Source: Bacteroides ilei
Lineage (GTDB): Bacteria; Bacteroidota; Bacteroidia; Bacteroidales; Bacteroidaceae
Length of the DNA stretch: 64,000 nt
Direction: 5' to 3'
Assembly: GCF_900128495.1 (NCBI RefSeq)
Contig: NZ_LT635801.1
Coordinates: 3,064,691 to 3,128,690 of the forward strand
The position numbers and the translations under genes were made by a program. Below, one piece after another: positions 8,335-41,934 of this stretch. Below the pieces are notes generated by a model. The model had not been told where the DNA came from. It searched no databases and worked only from the letters and a program-made list of their open reading frames with translations. Numbering within the stretch: the first letter of the stretch is position 1; each line of letters begins with the position of its first letter.

Positions 8335-8721
8335 ATGAAACGACAAATTGTAATAGACAGTGAGGCTAGAAAGAAATTACAGGAAGTATTCGGCGTATCC
8401 CGCGTTACGGTGTGGAAAGCATTGAACTATGAGAGTGAGAACGATCTGGCAAGGAAAATACGCTTTACCGCGGTAAAGGAAATGGGTGGCGTAGAAATAA
8501 ACGGTCCGCTTCCCGGATTTGAAACAATCCATAATACAGCAAATAGAATAACTACGCAAACATTTGGTCCTCGAGTAAAGATTATTCTATACTGGGACAC
8601 AAATAGGACTGCTGTGTTGGTGGATGGCGAGGTTCGCCGGATTGAGGACGGCCTTTCACTTTCTGAGTTTATGAGTGTTCAGGGAGAAGTGTATAAACTG
8701 GCACTATCCCTTAATAGTTAA
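8335..8721 (+). CDS. HTH DNA-binding protein upstream of MuA
   Basis: A 128-residue protein with an N-terminal HTH (residues 9-35, VFGVSRVTVWKALNYE) of the type that reads DNA through a Ser-Arg-Val-Thr recognition helix. The C-terminal half is unknown. It stands directly before the transposase, with a shared transcript (the stop is 10 bp from the muA start). It could be a Ner-like regulator of early genes. Confidence 0.7.
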   Translation: MKRQIVIDSEARKKLQEVFGVSRVTVWKALNYESENDLARKIRFTAVKEMGGVEINGPLPGFETIHNTANRITTQTFGPRVKIILYWDTNRTAVLVDGEVRRIEDGLSLSEFMSVQGEVYKLALSLNS

Positions 8722-8731
8722 GGAGGTCAAT

Positions 8732-10789
8732 ATGGAGTACTACGGGAAAATATTATGTATTTCAAAAGAGGACCTGATACGGGACGACAGGACAGCGGTT
8801 GGCGGTTATCAGATAGATAGCGTAATGGGGCCTATAATGAGTAAAAGCTGTTTTGACCAACTGGTTTTTCGCAAAAAAATCAGGGTTGTTCGCAAGGGTA
8901 TAGGCCGCGGCGTTACTGCTCTTGTAGCAGTTGAAAGCCTTCCGGAGAAATATAAAAAGATGGTTGAACAAAAATACGGCGATATGAAATCTGAAATATT
9001 ACGAAACTGGTTTGCTGCTCACTGGAGTATCGACGAAAACGCTCGGGTTTTCTTTGCCGGGTATAGGTTGGCCTCCGGGAAAGAACTAGAGCTTGAACAG
9101 CAACAGGAATATGTGTTGAACGCTTCTGCTATTCGTGCCGTACTCCGGTTGATGGACGACGTGAAGATGAAACGGGCGGTTATGCAAGGAAATAGGGTTT
9201 GCTGGGAGGAAATGGCCGGCGCAATAAATTTCTACCAGGCTGAGTTTGGTCACACGTTGCCAACATCTGTGAACCGCTTTAAAAAGAAGGTGAACGAGTT
9301 TAAGGAAAAGAGTTACGCCAGCCTGATAAGCAAAAAGTTCGGCAACCAAAATACACGCCTGGTCAATATCAAGGTTGAAAAATTGCTGGTCAGTATCGCT
9401 GCACGTCCTAACAGACCTTGGAACACCAGCGTTCATGAAATGTACAACCAGTTTGTACGGGGAGAGTTGGAAATGTACGATCCAGAAACGGGCGAGATTT
9501 ACAACCCGAAAGATTATACAGACAAAAAAGGCAACCCAATAGAGTTAAGCCCTTCGACAGTTCAGTATTATTTGACACTGCCTAAAAATCAGGCTTTGAT
9601 TGATAAACAGCACATGAGTTGGGCGACCTTCATGCATGAACAACGGCCACACGTGCACCGGGAGAATCCCGGATTTGCGTTCAGCCTGATTTCTTTCGAC
9701 GACCGCGACCTTCCGCGCAAACTAAAAGATACAAAACAACGGCCGAAAGCCTATTACGCATACGATGTCGCCAGCCAGTGTGTGGTTGGGTACGCATATA
9801 GCCGTAAAAAGGACATTGATTTGGTGGTGGATATGTTTCGCAGTATGTTCCGCCTGATAGACCAAAACGGCTGGGGAACTCCGGCACAGGTGGAAGTCGA
9901 GAATCATTTGATGAGCCAATGGAAAGACGGTTTTTTGAAAGCCGGTGAAGTATTTCCCTTTGTTCACTTCTGCGCCCCGCAAAATTCACAAGAAAAGCAC
10001 GCAGAACAATTTAACGGAGCCAAGAAACGGAGCCTAGAACACGAACACCAATTGGGAATCGGACGTTTTTACGCTAAGAATAAGAAATACCGAACGGAGG
10101 CGAAAAAGGTGTTCGATGAACTGAACGATACCTACGAGGATAAGCAATATTATACCTGGGACGAACTGATTGCCGAGGATCAGGAGATTATCCGACTTTT
10201 CAACGAATCGCTTCACCCGAACCAAAAGAAATATCCGGGTATGAGCCGCTGGCAGGTGCTTTGCGAGACCATGAATCCAAACTTGGAGCCTTACGATAAG
10301 TCATTCGTTGCCAAATATATCGGTGAGCACGTTGAAACTAGTATCCGTCGGAACAGTTATTGCCGGGTGAATTATACCGACTACTGGCTGAGTTCGCCGG
10401 AAGTGATTGAAAGGCTGGCTCCTAATAATTACAAGGTGGATGCCTACTACATACCGGAAGAAGACGGAAGCATCAAAGATTTGTTTATCTACCAAAACGG
10501 CAAACTGATAGATAAACTGGTGGATATGGGCAGATTCAACACCGCAGCCGCCGAACAGACCGAAGAAGACCGACGGATTATGACCGAACAGTTGAAATTC
10601 GGAAAGGCGTTCGACCGGATGATGGAGCGGGACGCAGCGAAACCGGTTGGCATCCTAAAGAAAGAGACCGTCCGGAAGATTAAGGAAGTTCAGCCCAAAG
10701 AAGTTCAGATACCACAAAACAACGATGATTCGGACTTTCTTAACTATGATCCTAAGAACTACGTAAAACGGGCAATAGCCAGCATTTAA
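8732..10789 (+). CDS. MuA-type transposase
   Basis: DDE recombinase that cuts and joins the prophage ends. The start at 8732 follows AAGGAGG at 8720-8726; the protein has 685 residues, near the 663 of MuA. N-terminal DNA-binding regions cover about 1-300. The catalytic core has D345 in YAYDVASQ and a Glu in NSQEKHAEQFN (E421 or E425). At the middle acidic position the sequence reads VEVENH, so E390-Asn would align with Asp-Asn of MuA. The C-terminal tail (IKEVQPKEVQIPQNN and DFLNYDPKNY) resembles the MuB-contacting end of MuA. The muB gene follows 33 bp later. Confidence 0.93.
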   Translation: MEYYGKILCISKEDLIRDDRTAVGGYQIDSVMGPIMSKSCFDQLVFRKKIRVVRKGIGRGVTALVAVESLPEKYKKMVEQKYGDMKSEILRNWFAAHWSIDENARVFFAGYRLASGKELELEQQQEYVLNASAIRAVLRLMDDVKMKRAVMQGNRVCWEEMAGAINFYQAEFGHTLPTSVNRFKKKVNEFKEKSYASLISKKFGNQNTRLVNIKVEKLLVSIAARPNRPWNTSVHEMYNQFVRGELEMYDPETGEIYNPKDYTDKKGNPIELSPSTVQYYLTLPKNQALIDKQHMSWATFMHEQRPHVHRENPGFAFSLISFDDRDLPRKLKDTKQRPKAYYAYDVASQCVVGYAYSRKKDIDLVVDMFRSMFRLIDQNGWGTPAQVEVENHLMSQWKDGFLKAGEVFPFVHFCAPQNSQEKHAEQFNGAKKRSLEHEHQLGIGRFYAKNKKYRTEAKKVFDELNDTYEDKQYYTWDELIAEDQEIIRLFNESLHPNQKKYPGMSRWQVLCETMNPNLEPYDKSFVAKYIGEHVETSIRRNSYCRVNYTDYWLSSPEVIERLAPNNYKVDAYYIPEEDGSIKDLFIYQNGKLIDKLVDMGRFNTAAAEQTEEDRRIMTEQLKFGKAFDRMMERDAAKPVGILKKETVRKIKEVQPKEVQIPQNNDDSDFLNYDPKNYVKRAIASI

Positions 10790-10822: not shown

Positions 10823-11710
10823 ATGGAACTGACTAACGAAATAAAGCAGAATATAATCTCTGCCATAAAAGAAAACAGGGAAAACTACCCTAGTGACAAC
10901 AAACACGCTGCGGCGTTGGGTATATCATCGAGTGTGTATAACAATTTAAAAAAAGGAAAGATTGACCGAATGGTGAGCGACGCTTCATGGATTTGTATAG
11001 CGCGGAGGTTGAACGTTTCACTGCGTAATGAAATAGAATGGAAGATTGCCGAAACGCCGACTTTTTTGTTCATAACCGAGCAGCTGCGAGTGTGTCAGGA
11101 AAGCGGTGTTTCCGCCCTGCTTTGCGACCTTGCAAATATTGGGAAAACATTTACTGCAAGGGCTTACGTAAAGACACATAAGAACGCAATTTATGTAGAC
11201 TGTTCACAGGTAAAAACGAAATCACGCTTGATTCGTTTTATTGCAAAGGAATTCGGCGTAAACAACAATGGCAGATATTGTGACGTTTATGATGATCTTG
11301 CCTTTTACCTGAAAACACTTGAGCGACCTTTGATAATACTTGATGAAGCCGGTGATCTTGATTATACCGCGTTTCTTGAACTAAAAGCTTTATGGAATGC
11401 AACGGAGCGCGGTTGTGCCTGGTATATGATGGGAGCCGACGGGCTACGGGCTAAAATAATCCGTTCAATTGAAAATGAGAAAGTGGGCTACACCGAAATG
11501 TTTAGCCGTTATGGTGATAAATTTAGTAAGGTAACCCCGGATGACGGTAAAGAGCGCGAGGTGTTCCTGAAGGCACAAGCAGCAATGGTTGTAAAGGTAA
11601 ATGCCCCAGGGCGCAACGATGTAGCCCAAATTGTAAATCGTACAGGCGGTAGTCTCAGACGTGTTTATACAGAAATTGAGAAAATCAGAAGGGAGGGTGA
11701 ATATGAGTAA
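10823..11710 (+). CDS. MuB-type target-selection ATPase
   Basis: AAA+ ATPase of 295 residues that in Mu binds target DNA and activates MuA. Residues 1-70 form an HTH region (AALGISSSVYNNLKKGK). The P-loop is DLANIGKT (102-109), with Asp where the first Gly of Walker A is usual. Walker B is IILDEAG (171-177). A Sensor-like Asn/Arg region follows. The stop overlaps the start of the next gene, indicating coupled translation. Confidence 0.9.
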   Translation: MELTNEIKQNIISAIKENRENYPSDNKHAAALGISSSVYNNLKKGKIDRMVSDASWICIARRLNVSLRNEIEWKIAETPTFLFITEQLRVCQESGVSALLCDLANIGKTFTARAYVKTHKNAIYVDCSQVKTKSRLIRFIAKEFGVNNNGRYCDVYDDLAFYLKTLERPLIILDEAGDLDYTAFLELKALWNATERGCAWYMMGADGLRAKIIRSIENEKVGYTEMFSRYGDKFSKVTPDDGKEREVFLKAQAAMVVKVNAPGRNDVAQIVNRTGGSLRRVYTEIEKIRREGEYE

Positions 11711-25962: not shown

Positions 25963-25963
25963 T

Positions 25964-27582: not shown

Positions 27583-27590
27583 CTATAATA

Positions 27591-27914: not shown

Positions 27915-27956
27915 AAGGAACTGCCGTGGCGGAGAAACCCGGCTGGCTGTTCCTTT
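27902..27956 (+). other. Programmed -1 frameshift signal
   Basis: The heptamer A AAA AAG (27902-27908) is in the exact phase for a tandem -1 slip. Five nucleotides later AAAGGAAC (27914-27921) pairs with GTTCCTTT (27949-27956), with an inner GCCG/CGGC stem, a typical stimulatory hairpin. The zero-frame stop TAA follows at 27912-27914. Confidence 0.8.
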
Positions 27957-28096
27957 CGGATGCCTTGATCCGCCACTGGCTACACCTCGATCCTTCGACG
28001 CTCAGCGATGAGGAATGGGCCCTTCAGATCAGGATGGCCGAATGGGTAAAAATTGACTTCATTAACAGCATAGGCAAATTATGGCAAACAAAATAG
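27908..28096 (+). CDS. -1 frame extension of the tail chaperone
   Basis: An open frame of 62 codons in the -1 phase, reading VIKGTAVAEKPGWLFLSD... and ending QTK at 28094-28096, 16 bp into the tape measure gene. It lacks a credible start of its own, so translation by frameshifting from the chaperone is the natural reading. It fills the otherwise empty gap before the tape measure gene. Confidence 0.75.
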   Translation, partial: VIKGTAVAEKPGWLFLSDALIRHWLHLDPSTLSDEEWALQIRMAEWVKIDFINSIGKLWQTK

Positions 28097-30720: not shown

Positions 30721-30723
30721 GTT

Positions 30724-31368
30724 ATGGCATCAAAATATACAGTCAAAGAGGTGGCGCAGACGTTCAAACGGGTAAGCCAGTTCAGTTTGGGCGACATGCT
30801 GCTTAACGTAATCGGGTATAAAGGTTTTCCGTACCCCGGCGGGTTCATTCCTGACGCCCCAGCAAAATATAAAGGAGACGGGTATGAATACCCCGGCGAA
30901 ACGGCTTCGGAGAAAACGAACTCCGACTTCGGTTCTACGCTCCGGAAGAAGGACGCGCAAGGCCGGTGGTATTTCATGCCGGTGGTTCTGGAACATAAGG
31001 GGGCGGAATACGAGATACCGAATGCCGTCATCTCTATCCGGGGCAAGAAGACGATTGTTGAAACGGCGATGGTCGGCCGTAAAGGTACGGTGAAGGAACT
31101 TATCTCAGTGGACGATTACGACATACGCATTGCCGGTGTCTGCATGGATGTGGATTTTCCGGACAGCCAGTTGGGCGACCTTGCGGAGCTGTATAACATC
31201 AACGAGTCGGTCACGCTCAAATGCGCCCTTACGGACATCTTCCTGGATGAAGAGGACAAGGTTGTAATCAAAAGCATCGATTTTGCCGAGATGAAAGGAT
31301 GTGAGACGGCGCAGGTGTTTACAATGGAGCTGGTTACGGATAGGAGTTTTGAATTAATTCTGGAGTGA
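30724..31368 (+). CDS. Baseplate-proximal tail protein (DUF6046-like)
   Basis: A 214-residue soluble protein following the tape measure gene and preceding the hub. I believe the family is listed as DUF6046, found in Bacteroidetes phage tails. Its place in the order suggests the Mu gp43-type link between tube and hub. It ends with MELVTDRSFELILE, 1 bp before the next gene. Confidence 0.6.
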   Translation: MASKYTVKEVAQTFKRVSQFSLGDMLLNVIGYKGFPYPGGFIPDAPAKYKGDGYEYPGETASEKTNSDFGSTLRKKDAQGRWYFMPVVLEHKGAEYEIPNAVISIRGKKTIVETAMVGRKGTVKELISVDDYDIRIAGVCMDVDFPDSQLGDLAELYNINESVTLKCALTDIFLDEEDKVVIKSIDFAEMKGCETAQVFTMELVTDRSFELILE

Positions 31369-31369
31369 T

Positions 31370-32332
31370 ATGTTTGTTTTATGCTGTGATATAAAAATAG
31401 GGGCCGTTTCTTTCAAGTCGGTTCACGACGTGAAGATCAAACGAAGCCTGTACGATTTGGCCGCCACCGCTACCGTCAAAGTTCCGGTAACAGCCGTGCT
31501 GAAACATGCCGGGGAACCGCCTACGCATATCGAGACGGCCCAGGCTATCAAGGTAGGCGACAAGGTGGAAATCAAGTTGGGCTATGACGGTACCCTGAAC
31601 ACCGAGTTTGTCGGTTACGTAAAGCGCCTGAACTATAAAGTTCCCCTGGAAATCGAATGTGAGGATGAATATTATAAGCTGCGTTTCTTGAACTGTGTTT
31701 TCAGCAAGAAGGAAACAACGTTAAAAGAGTGTTTGAACAGTGTTTTAACGGGTGTTCAAATGGGTGAAGTCGTTGACCTGACGCTGAAGAACTTCGTCAT
31801 CAACAACAAGCCAGGAAGCTGGGTGCTCGGTCTTCTGAAAAAGGAATACGGGCTGGTCGCCTACTTTGATATTGACGGCAAACTGAATGTCGGCAAGGCA
31901 AACGACGTGAAAGGCGAAACAGTGAAATACGTCCTCCGTGAGAACGTGATCAGCGACGATGAACTGAAATACCAGCTGGCAGAAGACATAAAATTGAAAG
32001 TTAAGGCTGTCTGCTATTATAAGGACGGTACGAAGATAGAAGGCGAGCTGGGCGAGGGCGGCGGAGAAACACGTACCTTTTACTATTACGATGTGAAAGA
32101 CGCAGCGGAACTGAAAACGCTTGCCCGGGAAGAGCTGAAACGGTATTCGTTTGACGGCTACCGGGGCAAGATAAAAACCTTCCTGCTTCCTTTTGCCCTA
32201 CCGGGAGGCGTTGCGAGCATCGAGGACAAAGTGTATAACGAACGGAGCGGCGACTACTTTATCGAAAGCGTGGAAACGGCTTTCGGGACAGGTGGCGGCC
32301 GTCGCACCGTAGAAATAGGTATCAAGGCATGA
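31370..32332 (+). CDS. Baseplate hub protein (Mu gp44 / gpD-like)
   Basis: A 320-residue protein of the late control D / gp27 type: an N-terminal beta domain (VKVPVTAVLKHAGE... KVGDKVEIKLGYDGTLNTEF), a middle domain and a C-terminal barrel ending RRTVEIGIKA. It forms the hub at the tail tip. It overlaps the spike gene by 4 bp. Confidence 0.8.
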   Translation: MFVLCCDIKIGAVSFKSVHDVKIKRSLYDLAATATVKVPVTAVLKHAGEPPTHIETAQAIKVGDKVEIKLGYDGTLNTEFVGYVKRLNYKVPLEIECEDEYYKLRFLNCVFSKKETTLKECLNSVLTGVQMGEVVDLTLKNFVINNKPGSWVLGLLKKEYGLVAYFDIDGKLNVGKANDVKGETVKYVLRENVISDDELKYQLAEDIKLKVKAVCYYKDGTKIEGELGEGGGETRTFYYYDVKDAAELKTLAREELKRYSFDGYRGKIKTFLLPFALPGGVASIEDKVYNERSGDYFIESVETAFGTGGGRRTVEIGIKA

Positions 32333-32976
32333 GCAAGGAAATGGAAGAATTACGCCGGAAGTTCCATGAGCGGTTCGGCGAAAGTGGCGACCAGGTATTC
32401 CTGGGAACCGTTACCGAAGTAAACGAGGATGAGTTTACCTGTACCGTCAAACGCGACGACCAGGTGGATTATTTCGATGTCCGCCTCCGTGGCCTGGTCA
32501 AGGCGGAACTGCAAGGCTTTGCCTTTATCCCACGCCTGCAAAGTACAGTACTGGTCTGCCGTATCGGGAAAAGTAACGAACTATTCGTGTGCCAATTCAC
32601 TGAGATAGACAAGATGATATTTACCGACAATGATCTGGAGGTAAAGGTTGATACCGAAAACATCGATATCAAGAAAGGGAAAAAGATAACCATTCATGTG
32701 GATGCGGGAAAGTTGGAAGTGACAAATGACAAGGTGAAAGCTCTGCACGAAGCCGACAAACTAACCGTCACAGCTGACAGTACCATCGTCAAGGCATCAA
32801 CAGCCGGCGTTACGATCACCCGCGGCAGCAGCGGCCTGAAAAGGACTTTGGAACAGATACTGGACGGGATTTGTGCCTTGACAGTTCCGACGGCTGTCGG
32901 TCCGTCCGGAGTTCCCATCAATATAACAACATTTCAACAAATCAAGGCGGATTTGCCTAATTATATGGAGGGATAG
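32329..32976 (+). CDS. Baseplate spike protein (gpV / gp45-like)
   Basis: A 215-residue membrane-piercing spike. The N-terminal OB fold (VFLGTVTEVNEDEFTCTVKR) is followed by a beta-helix of repeating strands (VKVDTENIDIKKGKKITIHV, then VKASTAGVTITRGSSGLKRT). It forms the needle of the contractile tail. Confidence 0.85.
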   Translation: MSKEMEELRRKFHERFGESGDQVFLGTVTEVNEDEFTCTVKRDDQVDYFDVRLRGLVKAELQGFAFIPRLQSTVLVCRIGKSNELFVCQFTEIDKMIFTDNDLEVKVDTENIDIKKGKKITIHVDAGKLEVTNDKVKALHEADKLTVTADSTIVKASTAGVTITRGSSGLKRTLEQILDGICALTVPTAVGPSGVPINITTFQQIKADLPNYMEG

Positions 32977-32979
32977 CGT

Positions 32980-33201
32980 ATGGCATTAATAAAATCGACA
33001 ATCAAATCAGAGATAAAGGAAGCCTTTACCCAAGTGATGAACCAGCAGGACGATGACCGGGAAGGGGCTATCGACAAGGTAGCGGACAAATTGGCTGATG
33101 CCGTCATGAATGCCATCAAGAGTGCCACAATCACCTATACAACCGGCCTGGCTACATCGATGGGCCCCGTAACAGGCACATTTGGAAACAAAATATCATA
33201 G
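32980..33201 (+). CDS. Small baseplate-region protein
   Basis: A 73-residue protein (MALIKSTIKSEIKEAFTQ) with an acidic helical N-terminal half and a beta C-terminus. It is between spike and gp46-like genes. I do not recognise the family; it may be a small baseplate component. Confidence 0.6.
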   Translation: MALIKSTIKSEIKEAFTQVMNQQDDDREGAIDKVADKLADAVMNAIKSATITYTTGLATSMGPVTGTFGNKIS

Positions 33202-33204
33202 CGT

Positions 33205-33501
33205 ATGAAAGACTATAAGCAACAGCCAGACGGTGACCTTGATTTGACAACCGGTGATTTGCTGGTAACGGAAAGCACCTACCAGCACCAGCGGGATTTG
33301 CTGTACAGTGACAAAGGTCATATCCGGCAAAAACCGGAAGCCGGTGTCGGGGCGGTAAATTACATGATGGATAACGATCCGGAAGGCCTGCTCCGTGCCA
33401 CACGCAAGGAATTTACGGCCGACGGTATGAAAGTACGGAAGGTTGCTTTTGCGGCCTATTCAAACGATTTAAATGTGGAGGCGACGTATGAAGGTGATTG
33501 A
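33205..33501 (+). CDS. Baseplate protein (Mu gp46 / gpW-like)
   Basis: A 98-residue wedge protein. The N-terminal half DGDLDLTTGDLLVTE and the QRDLLYSDKG segment match the gp46/T4 gp25-like family that forms baseplate wedges. It overlaps the following LysM-like gene by 14 bp. Confidence 0.78.
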   Translation: MKDYKQQPDGDLDLTTGDLLVTESTYQHQRDLLYSDKGHIRQKPEAGVGAVNYMMDNDPEGLLRATRKEFTADGMKVRKVAFAAYSNDLNVEATYEGD

Positions 33502-33790
33502 GGTACAGGATGAACAGCAACTGCTGGACATTGCCCTGCAACATTATGGGACGGCAGAGGCAATGGGTGAAATCATGGCGAACAACCCGGAGATGAAAAA
33601 TGAACCTTCGGCCGTGGTTGAAGCCGGACGCTCTCTCGGCGCTTTCTACCCGGACATTAAGTTGAAGGTAGGACAGCGGATAAGCATTGACGATGACAGC
33701 CGCCTTGTAAAAAAGACGGTAGTCAAGAAAATAGACAGGGATATCACCACTTACATGGAAACGCAATGGCAAGAACAATACAACAGATAG
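33488..33790 (+). CDS. LysM-like tail/baseplate protein
   Basis: A 100-residue protein read from the ATG at 33488. The central segment (YGTAEAMGEIMANNPEM ... LKVGQRISIDD) has the form of a LysM fold found in hub-associated tail proteins such as P2 gpX. It overlaps both neighbours. Confidence 0.6.
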   Translation: MKVIEVQDEQQLLDIALQHYGTAEAMGEIMANNPEMKNEPSAVVEAGRSLGAFYPDIKLKVGQRISIDDDSRLVKKTVVKKIDRDITTYMETQWQEQYNR

Positions 33791-34566
33791 AGGAAAGCAT
33801 TACGGGAAGGCTGCAAGCGACATTCAGCCTGTCCACATCGGCCGCATCCGAGTGGCGGCTTTGGGTACACTGTGTGGCATACTGTATCTACAGTTTTGAA
33901 CTGGTATTGGACGCATTCAAACGGGAAATGGATGCGGACGCGGAAAAGGAGGTGGCGGGTACGCTGACCTGGTATAACGATAAATGCTACGAGTTCCAGA
34001 TGGACCATGAACTGGTGTTCGACACGGTAACCGGCCTGTTGGAGTATGAGAAGGTGGATGAATCCGCGCGTGTGGTAAAGATAGCCTCCGTGAACGTGGC
34101 AGAGGATAACACAATCATGTTTCGCGTGGCCACCGAGGACGAAGAGGGGAAGATTGTGCCGCTTACGAGCAATCAACTGTTGAACTTCAAGAACTATATC
34201 GATGCGGTCAAGTTTGCCGGCACAAAGTCGGAAATCATATCGACGGATGCCGATGAAGTGAAGTATGACATCAAAGTCTATTATAATCCGGCCAACCCGG
34301 TAGATACGGTACGCGAAGCCGTATTGGCTTCACTGGAGGAGTTTAAGACATCCCAGCGTTTTGGCGGTGTCATTTACTCCCATAAGATGCTGGAGGCGGT
34401 TACGACGGTTGCAGGCGTTGTCACGGCCAAGATGCTTTCCCTCTCCCGCAAGGGTACGGAGGATGAGGATTTCATCCCGATTGACACGATGGCCTACCTG
34501 TATGCCGGTTATTTCAACTATGCCGGGGACAGCCGGCTGGAGATGGTTTCAATAAATGATATATAG
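33766..34566 (+). CDS. Baseplate protein (Mu gp47 / gpJ-like)
   Basis: A 266-residue wedge protein of the baseplate J family. The C-terminal region (VREAVLASLEEFKTSQRFGG VIYSHKMLEAV) with the VAGVVTAKML strand is characteristic. It precedes the gp48-like gene. Confidence 0.8.
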   Translation: MARTIQQIEESITGRLQATFSLSTSAASEWRLWVHCVAYCIYSFELVLDAFKREMDADAEKEVAGTLTWYNDKCYEFQMDHELVFDTVTGLLEYEKVDESARVVKIASVNVAEDNTIMFRVATEDEEGKIVPLTSNQLLNFKNYIDAVKFAGTKSEIISTDADEVKYDIKVYYNPANPVDTVREAVLASLEEFKTSQRFGGVIYSHKMLEAVTTVAGVVTAKMLSLSRKGTEDEDFIPIDTMAYLYAGYFNYAGDSRLEMVSINDI

Positions 34567-34568
34567 CC

Positions 34569-35024
34569 ATGAACATTATCCTGAACTTCAAAGAACTCAT
34601 CCGGCAGTATGTCGCCCCGCACCGCAGGCAACCGAACCGTCTTGCGTGGCTATGGTCGCTTGTGGACTTGGACGGTGTATGGCAGTCCTTCTCCGACTGG
34701 CGCGATTACTACCGGTATAAGGTGCATGTAACGAGCCAGCACCGCTCATTAGAGGGGCACCTGAACAAGACATTCGGCGGCGGTATCCTGATCAAGAGTT
34801 ACGAGGACCAGTTCCTCGCCATCGGACTAAACTCGGAGCCGGCTCACTGGGTGCTTTTTGAACCGATGCAGGAAATAGCCCTGGAGGGTGAGGGTGGACA
34901 AAGCTTCAAAGATGTGGACTTTATCGTTTATGTGCCGGAAGGTATAGACCTGAGCCTTGTACGGGCGGAAATCGAGCGTTATAAAATTGCAGACAGAACC
35001 TATAAAATAGTAACAAAGAAATGA
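34569..35024 (+). CDS. Tail protein I-like (Mu gp48 position)
   Basis: A 151-residue protein starting MNIILNFKELIRQYVAPHRR. Position between gpJ-like and the fibre genes is that of gp48 / gpI, which joins fibre to baseplate. The segment QHRSLEGHLNKTFGGGIL fits this family loosely. It overlaps the fibre gene by 4 bp. Confidence 0.6.
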   Translation: MNIILNFKELIRQYVAPHRRQPNRLAWLWSLVDLDGVWQSFSDWRDYYRYKVHVTSQHRSLEGHLNKTFGGGILIKSYEDQFLAIGLNSEPAHWVLFEPMQEIALEGEGGQSFKDVDFIVYVPEGIDLSLVRAEIERYKIADRTYKIVTKK

Positions 35025-35800
35025 AACGGCATGTACAATACCCCGGCGTAAGGAAATGGTCGGGAAATGATTTGTTGGAGTTGCAGAGCGAAGGCCTTCG
35101 CATAGCTGACGACTTCTTCTCACAGTACGGCAACTGTGTAATCTGCGGCTGCGCGGTATCGGAAACCGGCATCGATGCCGGGCTGGTCAACATTGACGGC
35201 ATGGTGCTGCCATTGGCGGCTACGAGTGTGGAAGTATTCCCCGTCTATTTAGTCAAGGACGAGGAACACGTCCAACGTGAATACGCAGACGACAAAGTCC
35301 GTGACATTGCCGTCCGGTATTTTGCGAAGGTGGTCCAGGCGAAACCGTCCGATACAGGCTTTATTGAGATTACAGCCGACGGATCATCCACATTCTTTGA
35401 TAAAATCGAGGCTGTTTGGCTGACGGATATACTAAACCGGCTGGAGTCCCTGAAGAAGGCTGACAAATCCCTGTCCGATGCCATCGAACTGTTGAAGGAG
35501 GCTGACAGGAAAGCCGCAGAACGCATCGTCACGCTCGAAAAGAAGATGCCATCCTACCTTGACCATATCCCGACGGTAAATGATGACAGCTACTTTGTAG
35601 GAGTCGAGGTTTGGACAGTGGACGAATACGGGAATAAGACGTTCTGGAAGTGCCACGACAACACGGAAGGCAAAGCCGTATGGAAACGCAGCGGTGAAGG
35701 TTCCGGAGGTGGTGGCAGTTACGGAGGAGCGGTTTACCTTACCGGACAGACTGATTTTTCTAAAGCAACAATTATAATTAAGGAGGGCTATTTAAAATGA
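35021..35800 (+). CDS. Tail-fibre-proximal protein
   Basis: A 259-residue protein. The N-terminal 130 residues are likely the baseplate attachment (MVLPLAATSVEVFPVYLVKD), then a heptad coiled coil at about 140-180 (LNRLESLKKADKSLSDAIEL) and a Gly-rich C-terminus (GEGSGGGGSYGG). It overlaps the variable fibre gene by 4 bp, so the two probably form one fibre. Confidence 0.65.
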   Translation: MKRHVQYPGVRKWSGNDLLELQSEGLRIADDFFSQYGNCVICGCAVSETGIDAGLVNIDGMVLPLAATSVEVFPVYLVKDEEHVQREYADDKVRDIAVRYFAKVVQAKPSDTGFIEITADGSSTFFDKIEAVWLTDILNRLESLKKADKSLSDAIELLKEADRKAAERIVTLEKKMPSYLDHIPTVNDDSYFVGVEVWTVDEYGNKTFWKCHDNTEGKAVWKRSGEGSGGGGSYGGAVYLTGQTDFSKATIIIKEGYLK

Positions 35801-37896
35801 GTGAATCAACAACCGGTGCATACGTGTACCAGCAAATCGTGAAGAGTACGGCTCAGTGGGCAGCCGATAAAACCGTCATCGTTGAAAACGTCTGGCTTTT
35901 CGAACGCAGGAGCGACGGCAAGATTATAACCAAACTGTCCGACGGCAAGCACTGTTATGCCGACCTGGACGAATACGGCCTGAGCGCATGGGATGCGGCG
36001 CAGCTTGGCGGCTACAAGGGAACTAAGGAGGAGTTTTATTTGTCGCTTGGCACCCTTGATGAAAAAGTGGAGCAGGTGACAAACCTTGTATCATCGCTCG
36101 ACGGTAAATTCGCAGAAACTCCGGATCTGCCGTCAACACCCGGGGAAGATACACTGACCTACCAGTCAGGGGAAGCAACCCGTAAATTCGCAATCGGCCA
36201 GCAGTGCCGCGTGTATGAGACAAAAGAGAAAGACTATGTCTTTTATCAGCTATACAATATCACGGAAGGGAATAAAGCCGACTGGCGTGTTGCCGGTTCC
36301 GGTGGAACATCCGCTTTTCAGGAGAAAGCCATCATAACCCTCACAAGTAACCAGGGTTTGAACGACGCCGACCTGAACGGCAAGAAGGTGACTGTTTCCT
36401 ACTCCGGCCAGCACTCCGAACTGGTCTGGAACGGTGAAGCGCTGGAGATTGCCATCCCCATGCAGGTGGAATATACCGTTTCACCGGAAGCCGCCTCCGG
36501 TTATGCCTCTCCGGAAGAACAACAGTACGTGGCTGTCGGGGGTAACGAAAGACAGATAAACCTGGTTTACTCTGCGGAGAAGGTGACGGTCAATGTAAGC
36601 ACGGACGACAGTGCGGACTGTTCCGGTCGTACTGTGACCATAAAGAAAACGTCAGGCGGCGAAGTGATTGGAAGCGGCAAGGGATCCAGTGTAGTTATAA
36701 AAGTGCCGTCGGGAACCGGATATACGGTATCCGTCGATGCTTTTGCAGGATACACCAAACCGGCAGACCAATCATTTACCGCAAACCCCGCGAGCCGTAA
36801 CGTGTCTTTCGTGTATGCAAAAATCAAGGATGCCGGTATTGTATTTGACAAATCCAAAAGCGACCCGCAGAATATCACCGGTGAAATCAACAGCGGGGTT
36901 CTGAAAACCATCCTGTCGAAGTTCCGCCGTTGCCTCTGCAAGAAAACGAAAGACGGTGAGGTTACAATTTCGTATCTTCGTGATGACAACAGCAATTTCT
37001 ACGCCGATGGCTCAGCAGCCAAGTTGGACGGCACAGAGGGCGATGTGATGGTGGATTTTCCGGAGTTCTATTACAAATGGGAGCAGGTGGACAGCAACAA
37101 ATTCCGTTACCGCTTTGCCGAATACAACGTGGACGGAACATTCAAGCATGTGCCACGCTCTTTAGTCGGTGCGTATAAAGGTTATATGACTTCGAATAAG
37201 CTGTATAGCCGAAGCGGGGTTCGTCCTACAGTTAGTAAATCCACTAATGATTTTGATGGGTACGCAACGGCTCGTGGTAAAGGTTATCAGCGTATCGACT
37301 TCCAGCAGCACTGTGTGATTGCCTTTATGCTTTATGCGCGTTATGGAAACAGAAATTTACAGGCTGTTCTTGGTGTGGGCGGTGCTGTTAGTGGCTCGTC
37401 AGCAACGATGACGGGAACCAGCAATGCGACAGGAATTGCGGATACAAAGAATGAAACAAGCAAGTATGTTTGCGGCTTGGGGCTTGAAGGTGTATTCGGG
37501 GGTATTTACGAATGGGTGAAAGGCGTTGAAATTAACAATCGCGTTTGGAAAATCACTGACCCGGACGGGGCAACCCGCAATGTGAACGCCGGAACAGAAG
37601 ACGGTTGGATAACGAATGTAGCTGCGGAAAACGGGCCTTTCTTCGACATGGTGCCTACGAAAGTGGGTGGCAGCGAAACGACACATTATTCGGATTACTA
37701 TTGGCAGAGTTCGGGCGGCCCCCTTGTTTTGGCGCGCTCCTATAGCGACTCGAATACGTATGGCGGCGTGGCGTATGCGTATGCGTATGACGATGCCTCG
37801 TACACGAATTCGTACTACGGTTCGCGTCTCGCTTTCAGGGGCGTTATCCGCGAAGCGGCGAGCGTAAGTGCGTTCAAAGCACTGTCAGTGCTTTGA
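35797..37896 (+). CDS. DGR variable protein, tail fibre with C-type-lectin-like tip
   Basis: A 699-residue adhesin and the target of the retroelement. Residues 1-130 are the fibre attachment and collar (YGLSAWDAAQLGGYKGTKEE is a phage-tail repeat). Two Ig/CNA-B-like repeats occupy about 185-345 (VTVSYSGQHSELVW..., VTIKKTSGG...). The C-terminal 300 residues have the formylglycine-enzyme type C-lectin fold that ends SRLAFRGVI. The variable residues are S650, Y655, Y662, Y664, D665, Y669 and Y673, on the ligand face expected for such domains. Each arises from an Asn codon in the template. Tyr-rich sites fit a receptor-binding role. Confidence 0.9.
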   Translation: MSESTTGAYVYQQIVKSTAQWAADKTVIVENVWLFERRSDGKIITKLSDGKHCYADLDEYGLSAWDAAQLGGYKGTKEEFYLSLGTLDEKVEQVTNLVSSLDGKFAETPDLPSTPGEDTLTYQSGEATRKFAIGQQCRVYETKEKDYVFYQLYNITEGNKADWRVAGSGGTSAFQEKAIITLTSNQGLNDADLNGKKVTVSYSGQHSELVWNGEALEIAIPMQVEYTVSPEAASGYASPEEQQYVAVGGNERQINLVYSAEKVTVNVSTDDSADCSGRTVTIKKTSGGEVIGSGKGSSVVIKVPSGTGYTVSVDAFAGYTKPADQSFTANPASRNVSFVYAKIKDAGIVFDKSKSDPQNITGEINSGVLKTILSKFRRCLCKKTKDGEVTISYLRDDNSNFYADGSAAKLDGTEGDVMVDFPEFYYKWEQVDSNKFRYRFAEYNVDGTFKHVPRSLVGAYKGYMTSNKLYSRSGVRPTVSKSTNDFDGYATARGKGYQRIDFQQHCVIAFMLYARYGNRNLQAVLGVGGAVSGSSATMTGTSNATGIADTKNETSKYVCGLGLEGVFGGIYEWVKGVEINNRVWKITDPDGATRNVNAGTEDGWITNVAAENGPFFDMVPTKVGGSETTHYSDYYWQSSGGPLVLARSYSDSNTYGGVAYAYAYDDASYTNSYYGSRLAFRGVIREAASVSAFKALSVL
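37721..37839 (+). repeat. DGR variable repeat (VR)
   Basis: The 119-bp match to the template repeat at 38049-38167, offset 328 bp. In the core there are seven differences (37745, 37759, 37780, 37786, 37789, 37801, 37813), each at a template A and changing to T or G. The 3' end reads GCT against ATA at 37831-37833, including a T-to-C change, so it marks the likely boundary (IMH) rather than mutagenesis. Confidence 0.95.
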
Positions 37897-37919
37897 TACT
37901 AATACCGGCGTAAGCCGGT
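37876..37919 (+). promoter_or_regulatory. Two hairpins directly downstream of VR
   Basis: First, AAAGCACT (37876-37883) and AGTGCTTT (37887-37894) with loop GTC, overlapping the gene's end. Second, ACCGGC (37904-37909), loop GTAA, GCCGGT (37914-37919), a 6-bp stem with a GNNA tetraloop. Hairpins with short stems and tetraloops just after VR promote retrohoming in the Bordetella phage DGR, so one or both may be target-recognition elements. The second may also terminate transcription. Confidence 0.65.
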
Positions 37920-37990
37920 CGATTTATAATATTTTTAAGTCGTTATCCATTAAAACCTTTTGGATATTAAGGATTCACGGAAAATCGAAG

Positions 37991-38011
37991 TACATTTGCG
38001 ATGTAAATGTA
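37991..38011 (+). promoter_or_regulatory. Candidate TR/RT promoter with overlapping dyad
   Basis: TACATTTG (37991-37998) is a perfect -7 box about 50 bp before the template repeat. It is also one arm of a palindrome, TACATTT (37991-37997) and AAATGTA (38005-38011), so a regulator could block it. No good -33 is seen. Confidence 0.5.
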
Positions 38012-38048
38012 AAAATGCGATGTTAAGATACAGGTAGAATTCCTCCGG

Positions 38049-38167
38049 CCCTTGTTTTGGCGCGCTCCTATAACGACTCGAATACGAATGGCGGCGTGGC
38101 GTATGCGAATGCGAATAACGATGCCTCGAACACGAATTCGAACTACGGTTCGCGTCTCATATTCAGG
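38049..38167 (+). ncRNA. DGR template repeat (TR) and spacer
   Basis: Non-coding template copied to cDNA. It matches VR for 119 bp except at adenines and the 3' boundary. In the VR reading frame it would give AAC/AAT (Asn) at nine positions, seven of which are changed in VR. The following 154 bp (38168-38321) up to the RT start holds a likely spacer for priming, with AACCCA near 38218 able to pair with TGGGTT near 38265. The ORF across TR (38057-38284) is not a gene. Confidence 0.92.
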
Positions 38168-38321
38168 AAAGAAAATATTATATTATGGCTCTTGGCCGGG
38201 ATGTGTTCCCCAGTCCAACCCATAGAGGAATGCACCTTGCCTCTTGGCAAAAAACAAATTGGGTTATGTTGTGTGGTAGGTTGATTCTCGAAGCACATAG
38301 ATTTCTGAAAGCGACAATAAA

Positions 38322-39611
38322 ATGAAGCGGTACGGACATTTGATAGAAAAGATTATAGAGGAAAGCAACCTTTTGGAGGCTTTCTCTATGGTCATGCGGG
38401 GCAAGAAGCGCAGCCGCACTGTCCGCTATTTCAAAAAGAACCGGGATAAGATCCTGGCAGACCTTGCCGATGAAATAAAGTCCGGCAAGTATGCACCGGA
38501 ATGTTTCCGGGAATTTGAAGTGGTGGAAAACGGGAAGGTGCGCGAAATCCAGTCCCTGCCGTTCAAAGACCGCATCGCCCTTCACGCGATAATGGCAGTT
38601 CTATACAGGGATGTTTTAGGCGGTATGATGATTCGCGACACGTATGCCAGCTTGCCGAAACGTGGTATCCACGACGGTTTGAACAGGCTTCGAAAAGCAT
38701 TAAAGGATCGTTCGAATACTGAATACTGCCTGAAACTTGACCTGAAGAAGTTCTACCATTCAGTCGACCAGGAAGTCCTTATCGGACGGCTACGTCGCAA
38801 GATAAAGGATGAAACGCTAATGCAGACCCTTATCCGTATAATCAGAAGTTATGGTCCCGGCCTGGCCATTGGCTACCATTCCAGCCAGTTGCTCGGTAAC
38901 TTTTACCTCTGTCTGTTGGATCACTACATGAAAGCGGAATTGGGCGTCAAGTATTACTTCCGGTATTGTGATGATATTGTCGTTCTCGGCCCTGATAAAG
39001 CGTATCTGCATGACATTTTTGCAAAGTTGCGCAAAGTGGTGGAGGAAGAACTTCACCTTACCATCAAACAGAACTGGCAGATATTCCCGGTAGAAGCACG
39101 CGGCATTGATTTCTTGGGGTACGTTACCTGGCATGATTATGTCCTGGTACGGAAACATATCAAGCAGAAAGTTGCCCGGCGGCTACAGAAGGTGAAAAGC
39201 AAGAAACGGAAATACGTTGTGCTTGCGTCGTTTTGGGGATGGGTGAAACGCTGCAACGGGAAACACTTATTTTTTAAACTAACAAATATGAAGTCATTTA
39301 AAGATTTAGGCGTCACTTACAAACCGGCTGACGGAAAGAAACGCTTCGAAGGCAACCTTACGCCTTTGGGCAATTTGCAAAACTGTAAAGTTACTATTGT
39401 GGATTTTGAGACCGACATCAAAACAAAACAGGGTGAAGGCCGCTACGTGGTCCAATACGAGATGGATGGCCAGAAAGGCAAGTTTATTACAGCTTCGGAA
39501 GAGATGAAGAATATTCTCGACCAAATCAAAGAAATGAATGAGCTGCCATTTGAAACGGTAATCAAACGGGAAACATTCGGAGGCAATAAGACGAAGTATG
39601 TATTCTCTTAA
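38322..39611 (+). CDS. DGR reverse transcriptase with fused C-terminal domain
   Basis: A 429-residue group-II-related RT that copies TR with A-to-N errors. Motif A is LKLDLKKFYHSVD (D140). The DGR hallmark replacing QGxxxSP is IGYHSSQ at 183-189. The active site is YCDD (215-218). The thumb ends near 315. From Met323 a separate domain of 107 residues begins (MKSFKDLGVTYKPADGKK), beta-rich and ending FGGNKTKYVFS; I recall stand-alone versions after the RT in some Bacteroides DGRs. No avd gene was seen. Confidence 0.95.
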   Translation: MKRYGHLIEKIIEESNLLEAFSMVMRGKKRSRTVRYFKKNRDKILADLADEIKSGKYAPECFREFEVVENGKVREIQSLPFKDRIALHAIMAVLYRDVLGGMMIRDTYASLPKRGIHDGLNRLRKALKDRSNTEYCLKLDLKKFYHSVDQEVLIGRLRRKIKDETLMQTLIRIIRSYGPGLAIGYHSSQLLGNFYLCLLDHYMKAELGVKYYFRYCDDIVVLGPDKAYLHDIFAKLRKVVEEELHLTIKQNWQIFPVEARGIDFLGYVTWHDYVLVRKHIKQKVARRLQKVKSKKRKYVVLASFWGWVKRCNGKHLFFKLTNMKSFKDLGVTYKPADGKKRFEGNLTPLGNLQNCKVTIVDFETDIKTKQGEGRYVVQYEMDGQKGKFITASEEMKNILDQIKEMNELPFETVIKRETFGGNKTKYVFS

Positions 39612-39626
39612 GAAGTAACAAGCCTT

Positions 39627-39779
39627 TGAGGGCAAGGTGTGAAAAAGGCCCTCAGCCATTGAGTAAGTATCGACGCCAATCATATACTTATACGCAAATG
39701 CGCAAACCCGCAGAGCTGAGGGCCAAAGCCCTTTTCCACTGCGGGTTTGCGCATTTTGCGCGTATAAAATATGATTGGC
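39627..39779. repeat. Large inverted repeat with competing stems
   Basis: Arms 39675-39713 and 39739-39779 are almost perfectly complementary (about 39 bp with two small indels) around a 25-nt loop. In addition GGCCCTCAGC (39647-39656) can pair either with TGAGGGC (39627-39633) or with GCTGAGGGCC in the loop (39715-39724). The loop also holds GGGC/GCCC with TTTT. It could be a bidirectional terminator or a switching structured RNA. No gene lies here. Confidence 0.7.
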
Positions 39780-39809
39780 ACTGCAAATATACTTTAATTT
39801 TTGGAGATT

Positions 39810-40052
39810 ATGACAATATACGAGATACTTTCTTTCAATAAAGAGCTGTTGCGCCGGCTTTCTGAGTCGGGCATACGGGTTGAAGATTACCGATATGTGG
39901 ACCTTTTCCATGATTTCACGAAAATGGTAGAGGATGGAAACAAGACGACATACGCTGTTGCCGTTCTCTCTGAAAAGTATGCAATAAGTGAACGAAAGGT
40001 GTATGATGTACTCCGTCACCTCAGAACTGACTGCAAGGGGCGTTCAGTGTGA
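39810..40052 (+). CDS. Small HTH protein, Mor/C-like candidate
   Basis: An 80-residue protein read from the ATG at 39810 after TTGGAG. The C-terminal half (YAVAVLSEKYAISERKVYDV) has the shape of the Mor/C helix-turn-helix of Mu late activators. It may activate the divergent late promoters at 22.6 kb. Evidence is limited to the HTH pattern. Confidence 0.5.
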   Translation: MTIYEILSFNKELLRRLSESGIRVEDYRYVDLFHDFTKMVEDGNKTTYAVAVLSEKYAISERKVYDVLRHLRTDCKGRSV

Positions 40053-40098
40053 TATAAGGGTATTGTTGCTCCTGTAGATAGATTTTGAAGGTATCTTT

Positions 40099-40761
40099 AT
40101 GGTGAATCAAATCTTTAAACCCATGAACAAATATCATCAAATTCTTTGCAAGATCCTGAATGCAGGAAAGGAACAACGAAACAAAAAGGGAGTTATTCGG
40201 TATCTGTTGAATGAATGTCTTACTCTGACACCTGCCGACCTGCTCGACATCTTCGAGACGCACGGCATCGCCCGAAAGAAGCTGCGACAGGAACTTCAAC
40301 TCTTCATGCAGGGAGAACGTAACGTGGAGCGTTACCGTGAAGCCGGCATCACCTGGTGGGATTATTGCGGTCAGACTCTTGTGAACAGTTATCCGACCTA
40401 CTTTGAGAAACTGCCTCCTCTCATCGAAAAGATAAACCGGGAAAAGCGGACCAGCAAGAATTATGTCCTCTTCCTTGGTTCTACAGGAGCGGAAACCAAC
40501 CAAGCCCCATGTCTGAGCCTTGTACAGTTCCAGATAGAAGACGGCGAACTGGTATTGTCGGCTTATCAGCGTAGCAGCGATGCCAATTTAGGCCTCCCGG
40601 CCGATATTTACCATCTCTATCTGATGGCCCGGCAAATAGACCTGCCTCTGAAATCGATTACCCTTAACCTTGGCAATGTCCATATCTATGAGAACAACCT
40701 GGAGCGTACCGGTGCCTTGCTTGCCGGTGATGAAGGGGTTCGGTTCGACCTGAATGTATAA
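40099..40761 (+). CDS. Thymidylate-synthase-fold pyrimidine-modifying enzyme
   Basis: A 220-residue member of the thymidylate synthase / dCMP hydroxymethylase superfamily. The active Cys is C138 in NQAPCLSL, with QFQIEDGEL after it. R158-S-S-D161 and LGLP (164-167) match the TS nucleotide site, and H195-Y197 the HxY. E65 and W86/W87 match E58 and W80 of E. coli TS. At the TS Asn177 position this protein has D169; that change gives dCMP preference in mutated TS and in T4 dCMP hydroxymethylase. R21, R126 and R127 are replaced (K29, K120, N121). An alternative start is 40123 (MNKYHQIL), which fits TS better. Confidence 0.82.
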   Translation: MVNQIFKPMNKYHQILCKILNAGKEQRNKKGVIRYLLNECLTLTPADLLDIFETHGIARKKLRQELQLFMQGERNVERYREAGITWWDYCGQTLVNSYPTYFEKLPPLIEKINREKRTSKNYVLFLGSTGAETNQAPCLSLVQFQIEDGELVLSAYQRSSDANLGLPADIYHLYLMARQIDLPLKSITLNLGNVHIYENNLERTGALLAGDEGVRFDLNV

Positions 40762-40859
40762 GAAACGTTGCAAACCCTGTGCAGCATGGTTTGATTGTTT
40801 TCTTTAGACGACTGGGATAAAATGGGGAATTTTGCAATCCGTTTTAAAACCAGGAACAA

Positions 40860-41717
40860 ATGAGAAAGCAGTATTTATCAGCCCCACTTCCGTTTGTGGG
40901 GCAAAAACGCATGTTTGCCAAAGAATTTATCAAGGTATTGAAACATTACCCGGATGATGCCGTATTCGTCGATTTGTTTGGCGGATCCGGTTTATTAGCC
41001 CATATCACGAAGTGTCAGAAGCCGGGCTCTACCGTTGTCTATAATGATTTCGACAACTACAGACGCAGATTGGAGAATATACCGCAGACCAATGCTTTGT
41101 TGGATAGGATTCGAGAGATAACCCAAATTGTACCCCGGAAGAAGGCATTGCCTAAAGAGTTGAAAGAATCTATCCTGCGTCTTATCGAGCGTGAAGAGGT
41201 AGATAACGGTTATGTGGATTACATCACGCTTTCTACCTCCCTGCTCTTTTCCATGAAGTATGCCACCAATTTGGACAGGCTGCGAAAGGAAACGTTTTAT
41301 AATACCGTGCGCAAATGCAGCTACGACCTTTGCTTTGACTATCTGGACGGACTGGAGGTTGTTTCCTGTGATTATAGGGGGCTGTTCAACAAATATAAGG
41401 ATATCCCGAATGTTGTATTCCTGATAGACCCGCCATATCTTTCCACTGAGGTTGGCACCTATACAATGGACTGGGGGCTTACTGATTATTTGGATGTGTT
41501 GCAGACGCTCGTAGGTACGAACTATATTTATTTCACCTCCAACAAGTCATCCATCATAGATCTATGTGAATGGATGGGCAGGAATAACACCATAGGCAAC
41601 CCCTTTGCAGGCAGCGAGAAGATAGAATTTAACGCGCACATGAATTACAACTCCTCCTACACAGACATCATGCTGTTCAAGAAAGCAGATGAAACAGTAC
41701 GCAAAATGGCATCTTAA
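40860..41717 (+). CDS. Dam-like DNA adenine methylase (D12 class)
   Basis: A 285-residue N6-adenine methyltransferase. FVGQKRMF (12-19) is the FxGxK motif of the D12 class, FGGSG (40-44) the AdoMet loop and DPPY (190-193) the catalytic motif. No restriction partner is adjacent. It probably methylates phage DNA against host restriction, or controls expression. A hairpin follows. Confidence 0.9.
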   Translation: MRKQYLSAPLPFVGQKRMFAKEFIKVLKHYPDDAVFVDLFGGSGLLAHITKCQKPGSTVVYNDFDNYRRRLENIPQTNALLDRIREITQIVPRKKALPKELKESILRLIEREEVDNGYVDYITLSTSLLFSMKYATNLDRLRKETFYNTVRKCSYDLCFDYLDGLEVVSCDYRGLFNKYKDIPNVVFLIDPPYLSTEVGTYTMDWGLTDYLDVLQTLVGTNYIYFTSNKSSIIDLCEWMGRNNTIGNPFAGSEKIEFNAHMNYNSSYTDIMLFKKADETVRKMAS

Positions 41718-41793
41718 CCACTATGTAAAGATACGAATTTTTGCTGAATTGGCAATGGGTTTAAGGTGTTATTTTAGACTGGGGATCAAACAA

Positions 41794-41837
41794 AAGCGTC
41801 ATTCAAATGCCATTTAAAGGTTGTTTGAGTGACGCTT
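41794..41837 (+). terminator. Terminator-like hairpin at the right end
   Basis: AAGCGTCATTCAAA (41794-41807) pairs with TTTGAGTGACGCTT (41824-41837) with one G-T pair, followed by GTGTTTTG. It would end the modification-gene transcript before attR. The second arm partly resembles the end-repeat (CGCTTGTGTTTT), a possible degenerate third site. Confidence 0.6.
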
Positions 41838-41857
41838 GTGTTTTGATGAAAATTGAA

Positions 41858-41901
41858 CGCTTCGTTTTGAAACCCCAGCGAAAAATAGAACGCTTCGTTT
41901 T
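41858..41901 (-). repeat. Right-end transposase binding sites (R1, R2)
   Basis: CGCTTCGTTTT at 41858-41868 and 41891-41901, 33 bp apart, each followed by GAAAC. They are the reverse complement of the left-end AAAACGAAGCG sites. Close spacing recalls R1/R2 of Mu. Confidence 0.75.
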
Positions 41902-41934
41902 GAAACAGTAGACCTTTCGATTTGCGGATTATAG

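Follow-up and report, generated by a model that had tools for sequence, protein, structure and literature searches.

Does the prophage resident in this part of the Bacteroides ilei chromosome rewrite the tip of its own tail fibre and, if so, with which proteins? The window, by which we mean the whole 64,000-nucleotide stretch analysed here (assembly GCF_900128495.1, contig NZ_LT635801.1, positions 3,064,691 to 3,128,690 of the forward strand), contains a cassette that a first-pass annotation had described as a complete, active-looking diversity-generating retroelement (DGR). A fibre gene carrying a variable repeat (VR) is followed by a template repeat (TR), a spacer and a gene for a reverse transcriptase (RT). 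The cassette sits in a Mu-like, hankyphage-related prophage, and its parts are as follows.

35797..37896, + strand: target gene, tail-fibre/adhesin-like, 699 residues, recognised from its open reading frame (ORF), PHROG matches and a tblastn alignment with phage p00
37721-37839, + strand: VR, made up of a 110-bp core (37721-37830) plus a 9-bp end (37831-37839)
38049-38167, + strand: TR, 119 bp, identical to the TR of a second prophage
38182..38305, + strand: structured spacer RNA, Rfam RT-3 (RF03068), 54.3 bits, E 5e-11, gathering score 40.5
38322..39611, + strand: DGR reverse transcriptase, 429 residues, a core of about residues 1-322 plus a C-terminal domain

The best register between the repeats pairs 37721-37830 with 38049-38158, an offset of 328 bp, with 7 mismatches in 110 bp. 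All seven fall at TR adenines (A to T five times, A to G twice), a rate of 7/25 adenines against 0/85 other template positions (Fisher p = 1.5e-5). They convert Asn to Ser, Tyr, Tyr, Tyr, Asp, Tyr and Tyr at fibre residues 650, 655, 662, 664, 665, 669 and 673, respectively. Past the core comes a three-nucleotide block (37831-37833; ATA in TR, GCT in VR) in which one template base is not an adenine, followed by a common TTCAGG. Recomputation returned what the first-pass annotation had given for the 328-bp offset, the two ORFs, the IGYHSSQ and YCDD motifs of the RT, and the seven adenine-bound differences with their residues; its VR of 119 bp stands if the 9-bp end is included, the strictly adenine-only part being the 110-bp core. 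When the TR stretch is searched against the host genome at E up to 0.01, four matches are returned, namely TR and VR here and the TR and VR of a second prophage.

This second prophage, which bears a second copy of the RT, lies on the minus strand of the same 3.8-Mb contig (host genome 3.97 Mb, 14 contigs), and it offers stronger evidence of rewriting than had been available from the window repeats. About 19.2 kb (window 22702-41933), comprising the structural and DGR half, is common to the two prophages at 98.7% identity, as against 71-79% across long blocks of the left half (window 5992-22595); judged from these identities they are mosaics, the product of exchange between two Mu-like prophages. 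Within the 19.2 kb, most differences crowd at the left edge, before 24186. From 24186 to 41933, about 17.7 kb, there are 18 differences, of which 10 lie inside the 119-bp VR and 8 elsewhere. The VR differences occupy 10 of the 28 TR adenines and 0 of the 91 other positions (p 1.2e-7), and their excess over the remaining ~17.6 kb has p 5e-18, both values being computed to 41956, 23 bases beyond the prophage end at 41933. The twin TRs are identical over 119 bp. Measured against this common TR, the core of the window VR carries 7 changes and that of its twin 8; two changes are in common (37780 and 37786), and the adenine at 37789 has become a different base in each. Ten adenine-only differences in VR, eight elsewhere and identical TRs imply that VR rewriting postdates the separation of the two copies. 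Variation confined to template adenines over a constant TR, the pattern that the first-pass annotation had proposed to look for, is thus found in 10 of 10 cases, and it is the prediction of mutagenic retrohoming, not of point mutation or recombination. The mosaic make-up of the twins might lend some credit to recombination with other phages, in place of retrohoming, as the source of the VR differences. Imported tracts, however, should carry non-adenine and flanking differences, whereas here every VR difference is at a template adenine and the closest differences outside VR are at 36778, 966 bp upstream, and at 38202, 385 bp downstream; recombination is accordingly very improbable indeed, and we take mutagenic retrohoming as the origin of the VR differences.

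The enzyme is of the expected type. It matches Pfam RVT_1 (1.1e-11) and phrog_1423 (3.1e-113), and its AlphaFold2 model has a mean predicted local distance difference test (pLDDT) of 90.4 and a predicted template-modelling score (pTM) of 0.72. When a profile of 52 relatives is compared with solved structures, the DGR RT of phage BPP-1 (8ub7) ranks first (5.4e-57, profile positions 2-321). The same chain is the top Foldseek match of the model (E 5.9e-24) and aligns with it by VIA-align at Z 34.8 over 319 residues (root-mean-square deviation (rmsd) 2.0, 33% identity), in keeping with the DGR-type RT that had been claimed from motifs. The match to 8ub7 ends at residue 324, leaving the final ~105 residues without a counterpart in the BPP-1 chain. 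RT sequence and fold, the adenine-only core differences between VR and TR, the RT-3 spacer RNA and the prophage context together support the identification of the cassette as a DGR. Since DGRs on gut phages are established, the cassette itself is unsurprising, a further case of a known kind; the lead is its make-up, in which no Avd was detected and the RT carries a tail that is like the oligonucleotide/oligosaccharide-binding (OB) fold. As the best explanation, we hold with high confidence that the DGR of a Mu-like, hankyphage-related prophage is rewriting that phage's own tail-fibre tip. This explanation rests on assembled sequence and predicted structures, which, like several points taken up below for the fibre, the window copy and the RT tail, weighs against it.

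The fibre protein matches phrog_14959 (annotated as function unknown, 2.5e-53) and phrog_5302 ('tail protein', 1.3e-46), and its tip, residues 348-697, is about 31% identical by tblastn to the fibre of Bacteroides phage p00 (hankyphage). According to Benler et al. (PMC6199706, cited from the part available), the hankyphage fibre has a C-type lectin domain. The tip had been labelled a C-lectin in the first-pass annotation, and the kinship with the hankyphage tip favours that label, but none of the Pfam families matched the tip at E up to 1 and the fold is unconfirmed; the PDB gave one weak match (E 0.078). By analogy with BPP-1 and hankyphage, rewriting of VR likely benefits the phage by shifting its receptor range. 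A Pfam domain is found neither in the whole protein nor in the tip, as might be the case if the diversified protein were no receptor binder but a structural or otherwise surface-exposed part. Such a role is improbable, given that the gene comes after tail and baseplate genes, that the protein matches a PHROG tail family and that it is akin, at the tip, to the hankyphage fibre, and a receptor-binding fibre is the reading followed here.

The eight background differences between the twins bear on the present activity of the window copy. They were polarised with outgroups drawn from closer DGRs, a Bacteroides metagenome-assembled genome (L002, RT 87% identical) and three viral contigs (L037, L038 and L039, target genes 64-71% identical). 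Three differences look derived in the twin, 31821, 33872 (where a third base stands in one of the four outgroups) and 36778 (where two outgroups align), and another three could not be assigned to either side. The remaining two are clearly derived in the window.

38202, + strand: derived C to T in the spacer RNA, the second prophage and 4/4 outgroups having C
39250, + strand: derived substitution of RT His310 by Arg, the second prophage having His

Of the 52 RTs aligned, 49 have His at column 310; the exceptions are the window Arg, one Trp and one Tyr. Site 38202 falls in a hairpin loop in the folds of relatives such as L002 and L037, and the minimum-energy fold of the window RNA is less regular there. 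Because both clearly derived changes, Arg310 and the spacer base, fall in the DGR machinery, the window copy may be weakened. Arg310 need not be fatal, since Arg also occurs at this column in a phage represented in two collections (L001 and L003), whose VR/TR pair looks used, with 13 of 15 differences at A. The window DGR might, at the extreme, be dead, with a VR left over from earlier retrohoming and a defunct RT or RNA of its own, as could befit a chromosomal resident with two hits in its machinery. We consider this unlikely: the YCDD and SSQ motifs are present, the RT ORF is intact, TR is unchanged, another DGR RT has the same Arg, and the twin VRs became different only after the two copies had come to share the 17.7-kb segment. 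On the scale of that sharing DGR activity is recent, whichever copy supplied it. The first-pass view that the fibre 'probably still can be' rewritten is less certain for the window copy alone on account of its two derived changes. As the TRs are identical, either copy could in principle rewrite both VRs; given one derived change in the window RT and another in its spacer, the better donor at present may be the twin.

'Complete', as the cassette had been called, is correct for VR, TR and RT and not for Avd, the fourth part of the archetype. The bAvd model (PF22296) has no match at E 0.001 across the whole host genome; as a control, in a set of 399 genomes from the host's family it matches at least 121, and in 15 of these the score exceeds the curated cut-off. 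PF05635 likewise gave no match, in a search that had no positive control. The interval from the fibre stop to TR measures 152 bp, and the longest + strand frame wholly inside it has 42 codons. A sufficiently divergent Avd could escape the bAvd model. Benler et al. (PMC6199706), in the part available, liken a small ORF near the hankyphage RT to Avd by size and isoelectric point. Two ORFs of p00 are candidates for it. The first, of 64 residues, lies between VR and TR and is without a Pfam or PHROG match; the second, of 161 residues, comes after the RT and is a DUF4376 protein in the relative BKO1-TP1. No evident counterpart of either is present in the window, yet the window VR has clearly been rewritten.

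The RT carries, beyond its core, a tail that recurs in other DGR loci.

39285..39608, + strand: RT C-terminal domain, about 107 residues, phrog_19665, predicted OB topology

The domain belongs to phrog_19665 (2.8e-20). Modelled in isolation (pLDDT 86.1, pTM 0.75), it shows the OB order beta1-2-3-alpha-beta4-5. Its VIA-align neighbours are PRD1 P12 (Z 5.7, 85 residues, rmsd 3.2), Rim1 (5.5), a bacterial single-stranded DNA-binding protein (SSB; 5.1) and PriB (4.4); proteins of SSB type top the list (Z 4.1-5.7), interspersed with other OB and small-barrel proteins such as eIF5A and RuvB-like domains. The domain is better conserved than the RT overall, at 94, 90 and 87% identity to L002, L038 and L039 against 87, 79 and 75% for the whole RT. 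Three points tell against an SSB-like role: Foldseek finds nothing for the model at E 0.001 or better, the fold match, weak at a best Z of 5.7, may reflect a mere common arrangement, and the domain is slightly acidic (pI 5.4), which is unexpected for an RNA binder. In L037 (8529-9815) the RT frame stops inside this domain, at 351 residues, and the remainder forms a separate 70-residue ORF; the VR differences there, the split notwithstanding, are 16/16 at TR A.

Across the 399 genomes of the host's family, phrog_19665 has 42 matches in 30 genomes. Of these matches, 36 coincide at least in part with an RT match, another 5 come within 600 bp of an RT match, two of those being in the RT frame, and 1 has no RT near. 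The weaker cases include G174 (L223), with a match of 5.8e-6 that is located 576 bp from an RT match and whose own ORF failed the motif filter, and G327, with a match of 2.4e-4 and no RT match nearby, nothing being seen in L224. Relatives of the domain also occur as separate ORFs. One lies between VR and TR in L035 (hhalign 98%, phrog_19665 6e-35), one directly upstream of a 347-codon RT frame in L196, and a more distant one downstream of the RT in L001 (hhalign 97%, phrog_19665 1.8e-7). The simplest reading of a domain that is fused to the RT in one group and found beside shorter RTs in another is that it works together with the RT; that it stands in for Avd, or holds the complementary DNA (cDNA), we infer.

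The domain might instead be no substitute for Avd at all, with an unrelated host or phage accessory doing that job, or none being needed, and the domain serving, for instance, to recruit a host recombination protein. We regard this as a serious possibility, a little short of an even chance. The acidity of the domain fits it, and the separation of bAvd from the domain is merely suggestive. Among 113 RT loci, 39 have the domain, at least 6 have bAvd, none has both and 68 have neither, among the matches listed, the bAvd input being 40 rows from genomes with an RT match; about 2 loci with both would be expected, and the hypergeometric chance of none, calculated by hand, is ~0.07. Set against it are the position of 41 of the 42 phrog_19665 matches on or within 600 bp of an RT match, the separate forms directly upstream of shorter RTs in L035 and L196, that of L035 between VR and TR, and the report for BPP-1 that avd sequence borders TR on its 5' side (PMC12875486, in the part available). 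That bAvd and the OB domain exclude each other was considered as a result in its own right and set aside as not significant, many of the 68 loci with neither being probably not DGRs. Proteins of 138 residues located 3' of the RT in L027, L028 and L030 were similarly considered as a separate OB form and rejected (hhalign probability 2%; no PHROG match for L028).

Substitution of the domain for Avd is part of a wider reading, which we put forward tentatively and consider somewhat doubtful as a whole. It holds that a large group of Bacteroidales phage DGRs, hankyphage included, is Avd-less and has instead an SSB-like OB domain, either fused to the RT or encoded beside it, which keeps hold of template RNA or single-stranded cDNA in retrohoming, and that twin prophages with a common template can diversify each other's fibres in trans, so that the fibre of a copy with a decaying RT goes on being diversified. 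The main explanation adopted above, independently of this wider reading, follows the BPP-1 model: the TR-spacer transcript would be bound by the RT, priming from the spacer would start an error-prone cDNA copy of TR in which wrong bases are put in opposite A, and this cDNA would replace VR beginning at the VR 3' end. In that explanation the OB-like domain would take on part of the job of Avd or of a host SSB, holding TR RNA or nascent single-stranded cDNA.

Wu et al. (2018, in NAR) are said to have named further DGR accessory proteins. Among the papers listed in our literature search, none was recognised as tying an OB or SSB-like domain to DGR RTs, and the OB-fold in the available part of PMC7159879 refers to other domains. 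One DGR-associated protein without Pfam assignment, suggested in reference 12 of PMC10053308 (presumably Wu et al.) as mentioned in the available part of that paper, could be the OB-like domain described here. Proteins of phrog_11557 (function unknown) stand directly 3' of the RT in two otherwise dissimilar DGR loci (L001 5998-6432 and L028 2492-2878) and possibly represent another DGR-linked gene.

Adenine-directed change extends to the related loci. The RT profile retrieved 80 loci on IMG/VR viral contigs, 45 of them with a VR/TR pair; two duplicates aside, 470 of 495 differences are at TR A, and since both pair finders required at least 60% A-side mismatches, these tallies describe the loci and are not an independent test. 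The 470 changes comprise 244 A to T, 173 A to G and 53 A to C. No VR/TR pair was found in 35 of the 80 IMG/VR loci, nor in 9 of the 39 loci of the other set (L008, L009, L010, L013, L016, L026, L029, L032 and L033). The loci are not all independent, L053-L055 being contigs of L037-L039 and L001 and L003 being one phage. A to C makes up 53/470 changes in this mostly OB-tailed RT group versus 27/86 in L027, L028, L030, L035 and L036, whose RTs are under 350 residues; the error spectrum of the RT or codon selection could explain the contrast. In L022 (G261), the TR (1185-1297, in RT orientation) has three A-to-G changes relative to the related L020 and L021, and the VR of the same locus shows all three. 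The cause is either entry of VR-like sequence into TR or a mix-up of the two repeats during assembly.

In the spacer RNA, RT-17 overlaps the RT-3 match marginally (41.0 versus 40.4). RT-3 reaches its gathering score in 6 of 10 related loci (L002, L024, L031, L037, L039 and L051) and stays below it in L001, L027, L035 and L038. In BPP-1, the TR-RT spacer recruits the RT-Avd complex and provides the priming adenine (PMC12875486, in the part available), and by position RT-3 would be its counterpart. Two candidate DNA hairpins follow VR.

37874..37896, + strand: candidate post-VR DNA hairpin, 10-bp inverted repeat with a 3-nt loop, ending with the fibre stop codon
37904..37919, + strand: candidate post-VR hairpin, 6-bp inverted repeat ACCGGC-GTAA-GCCGGT, also in L037 and L038

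These start 44 and 74 nt past the VR core, in a flank identical to that of L005. The 10-bp repeat is present in L005, L002, L037 and L038 and was not found in L039 or L056, and the 6-bp repeat has an altered loop in the latter two. Together with the three-nucleotide VR/TR difference ahead of the common TTCAGG, these repeats are candidates for an IMH-like 3' end with its hairpin, although they are placed otherwise than in BPP-1. Among the relatives' distinct post-VR flanks, 23 of 55 have a stem of at least 6 bp with at least 4 G-C pairs, where mononucleotide shuffles lead one to expect 3.0. A long imperfect inverted repeat, noted by eye, lies just 3' of the RT (39675-39785), at about the site of DUF4376 in hankyphage relatives.

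The remainder of the prophage is that of a Mu-like phage.

8675..10789, + strand: Mu-like transposase (phrog_310, 6.6e-53)
10823..11710, + strand: transposition protein (phrog_296, 1.6e-41), which from its position we take to be MuB-like
41855..41933, + strand: right prophage end, bearing GAACGCTTCGTTTTGAAAC twice in direct orientation; sequence identity to the twin runs as far as 41933

Terminase, portal, major head, tail sheath, tape measure and baseplate genes are also present. The RT is followed on its 3' side by an 83-residue protein (phrog_17790; weakly Mor-like at E 0.011, under the Pfam cut-off), a thymidylate synthase and a D12 methyltransferase.

The twin prophages constitute a natural experiment within one chromosome, with the same template, nearly the same flanks and different VRs. 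How the mutated cDNA enters VR is, by the account in PMC12875486 (in the part available), not yet fully clear, and an RT of DGR type whose own tail domain resembles ssDNA binders, in a genome where no Avd was found, offers a concrete lead on this step. The OB-tailed RT is also a possible part for targeted-mutagenesis tools.

Among known systems, the BPP-1 DGR shares with the window the fold and sequence of the RT core and, as described in the available part of PMC12875486, a VR at the 3' end of the fibre gene, a TR downstream of it and a TR-RT spacer RNA. It differs in requiring Avd (same source), none having been found in the window genome, and in its 328-residue RT chain, which has no counterpart of the C-terminal domain. 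The inverted repeats of BPP-1 directly adjoin VR (PMC3240598, in the part available), whereas the window candidates stand at +44 and +74. The Rfam RT-3 family fits the window spacer in TR-RT position and structure model, at 54.3 bits as compared with 146.6 for p00. The small phrog_19665 proteins (function unknown) are of the same family as the RT C-terminal domain but stand alone in L035, L196 and, distantly, L001, whereas in the window the domain is fused to the RT.

Hankyphage is likewise among the closest known systems. The order fibre, TR, RT, regulator, thymidylate synthase and methyltransferase is common to p00 (BK010646), BKO1-TP1 and the window, and p00 is likewise a Mu-like phage with a 434-residue RT bearing the same C-terminal domain, an RT-3 spacer RNA and VR/TR differences that are 9/9 at TR A. 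Hankyphage DGR activity in culture is reported in the available part of PMC12135933. The window phage differs from p00 in several respects. The p00 fibre has 2,245 codons (record 31489-38226) against 699 residues, the likeness being confined to the tip, and where p00 has its 64- and 161-residue ORFs, the window has no + strand frame above 42 codons from fibre stop to TR and no + strand ORF of at least 80 residues from the RT to 39801. A megablast search with the cassette (35797-39611) gave no match in 50,697 phage records, and a distant DNA search for phage relatives gave short spacer matches only. As the two RT proteins are about 47% identical and no megablast match was found, the window phage is a relative of hankyphage and not the same phage. 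Benler et al. (PMC6199706, in the part available) describe two hankyphage lysogens that differ only in VR; here, such a pair lies inside one chromosome.

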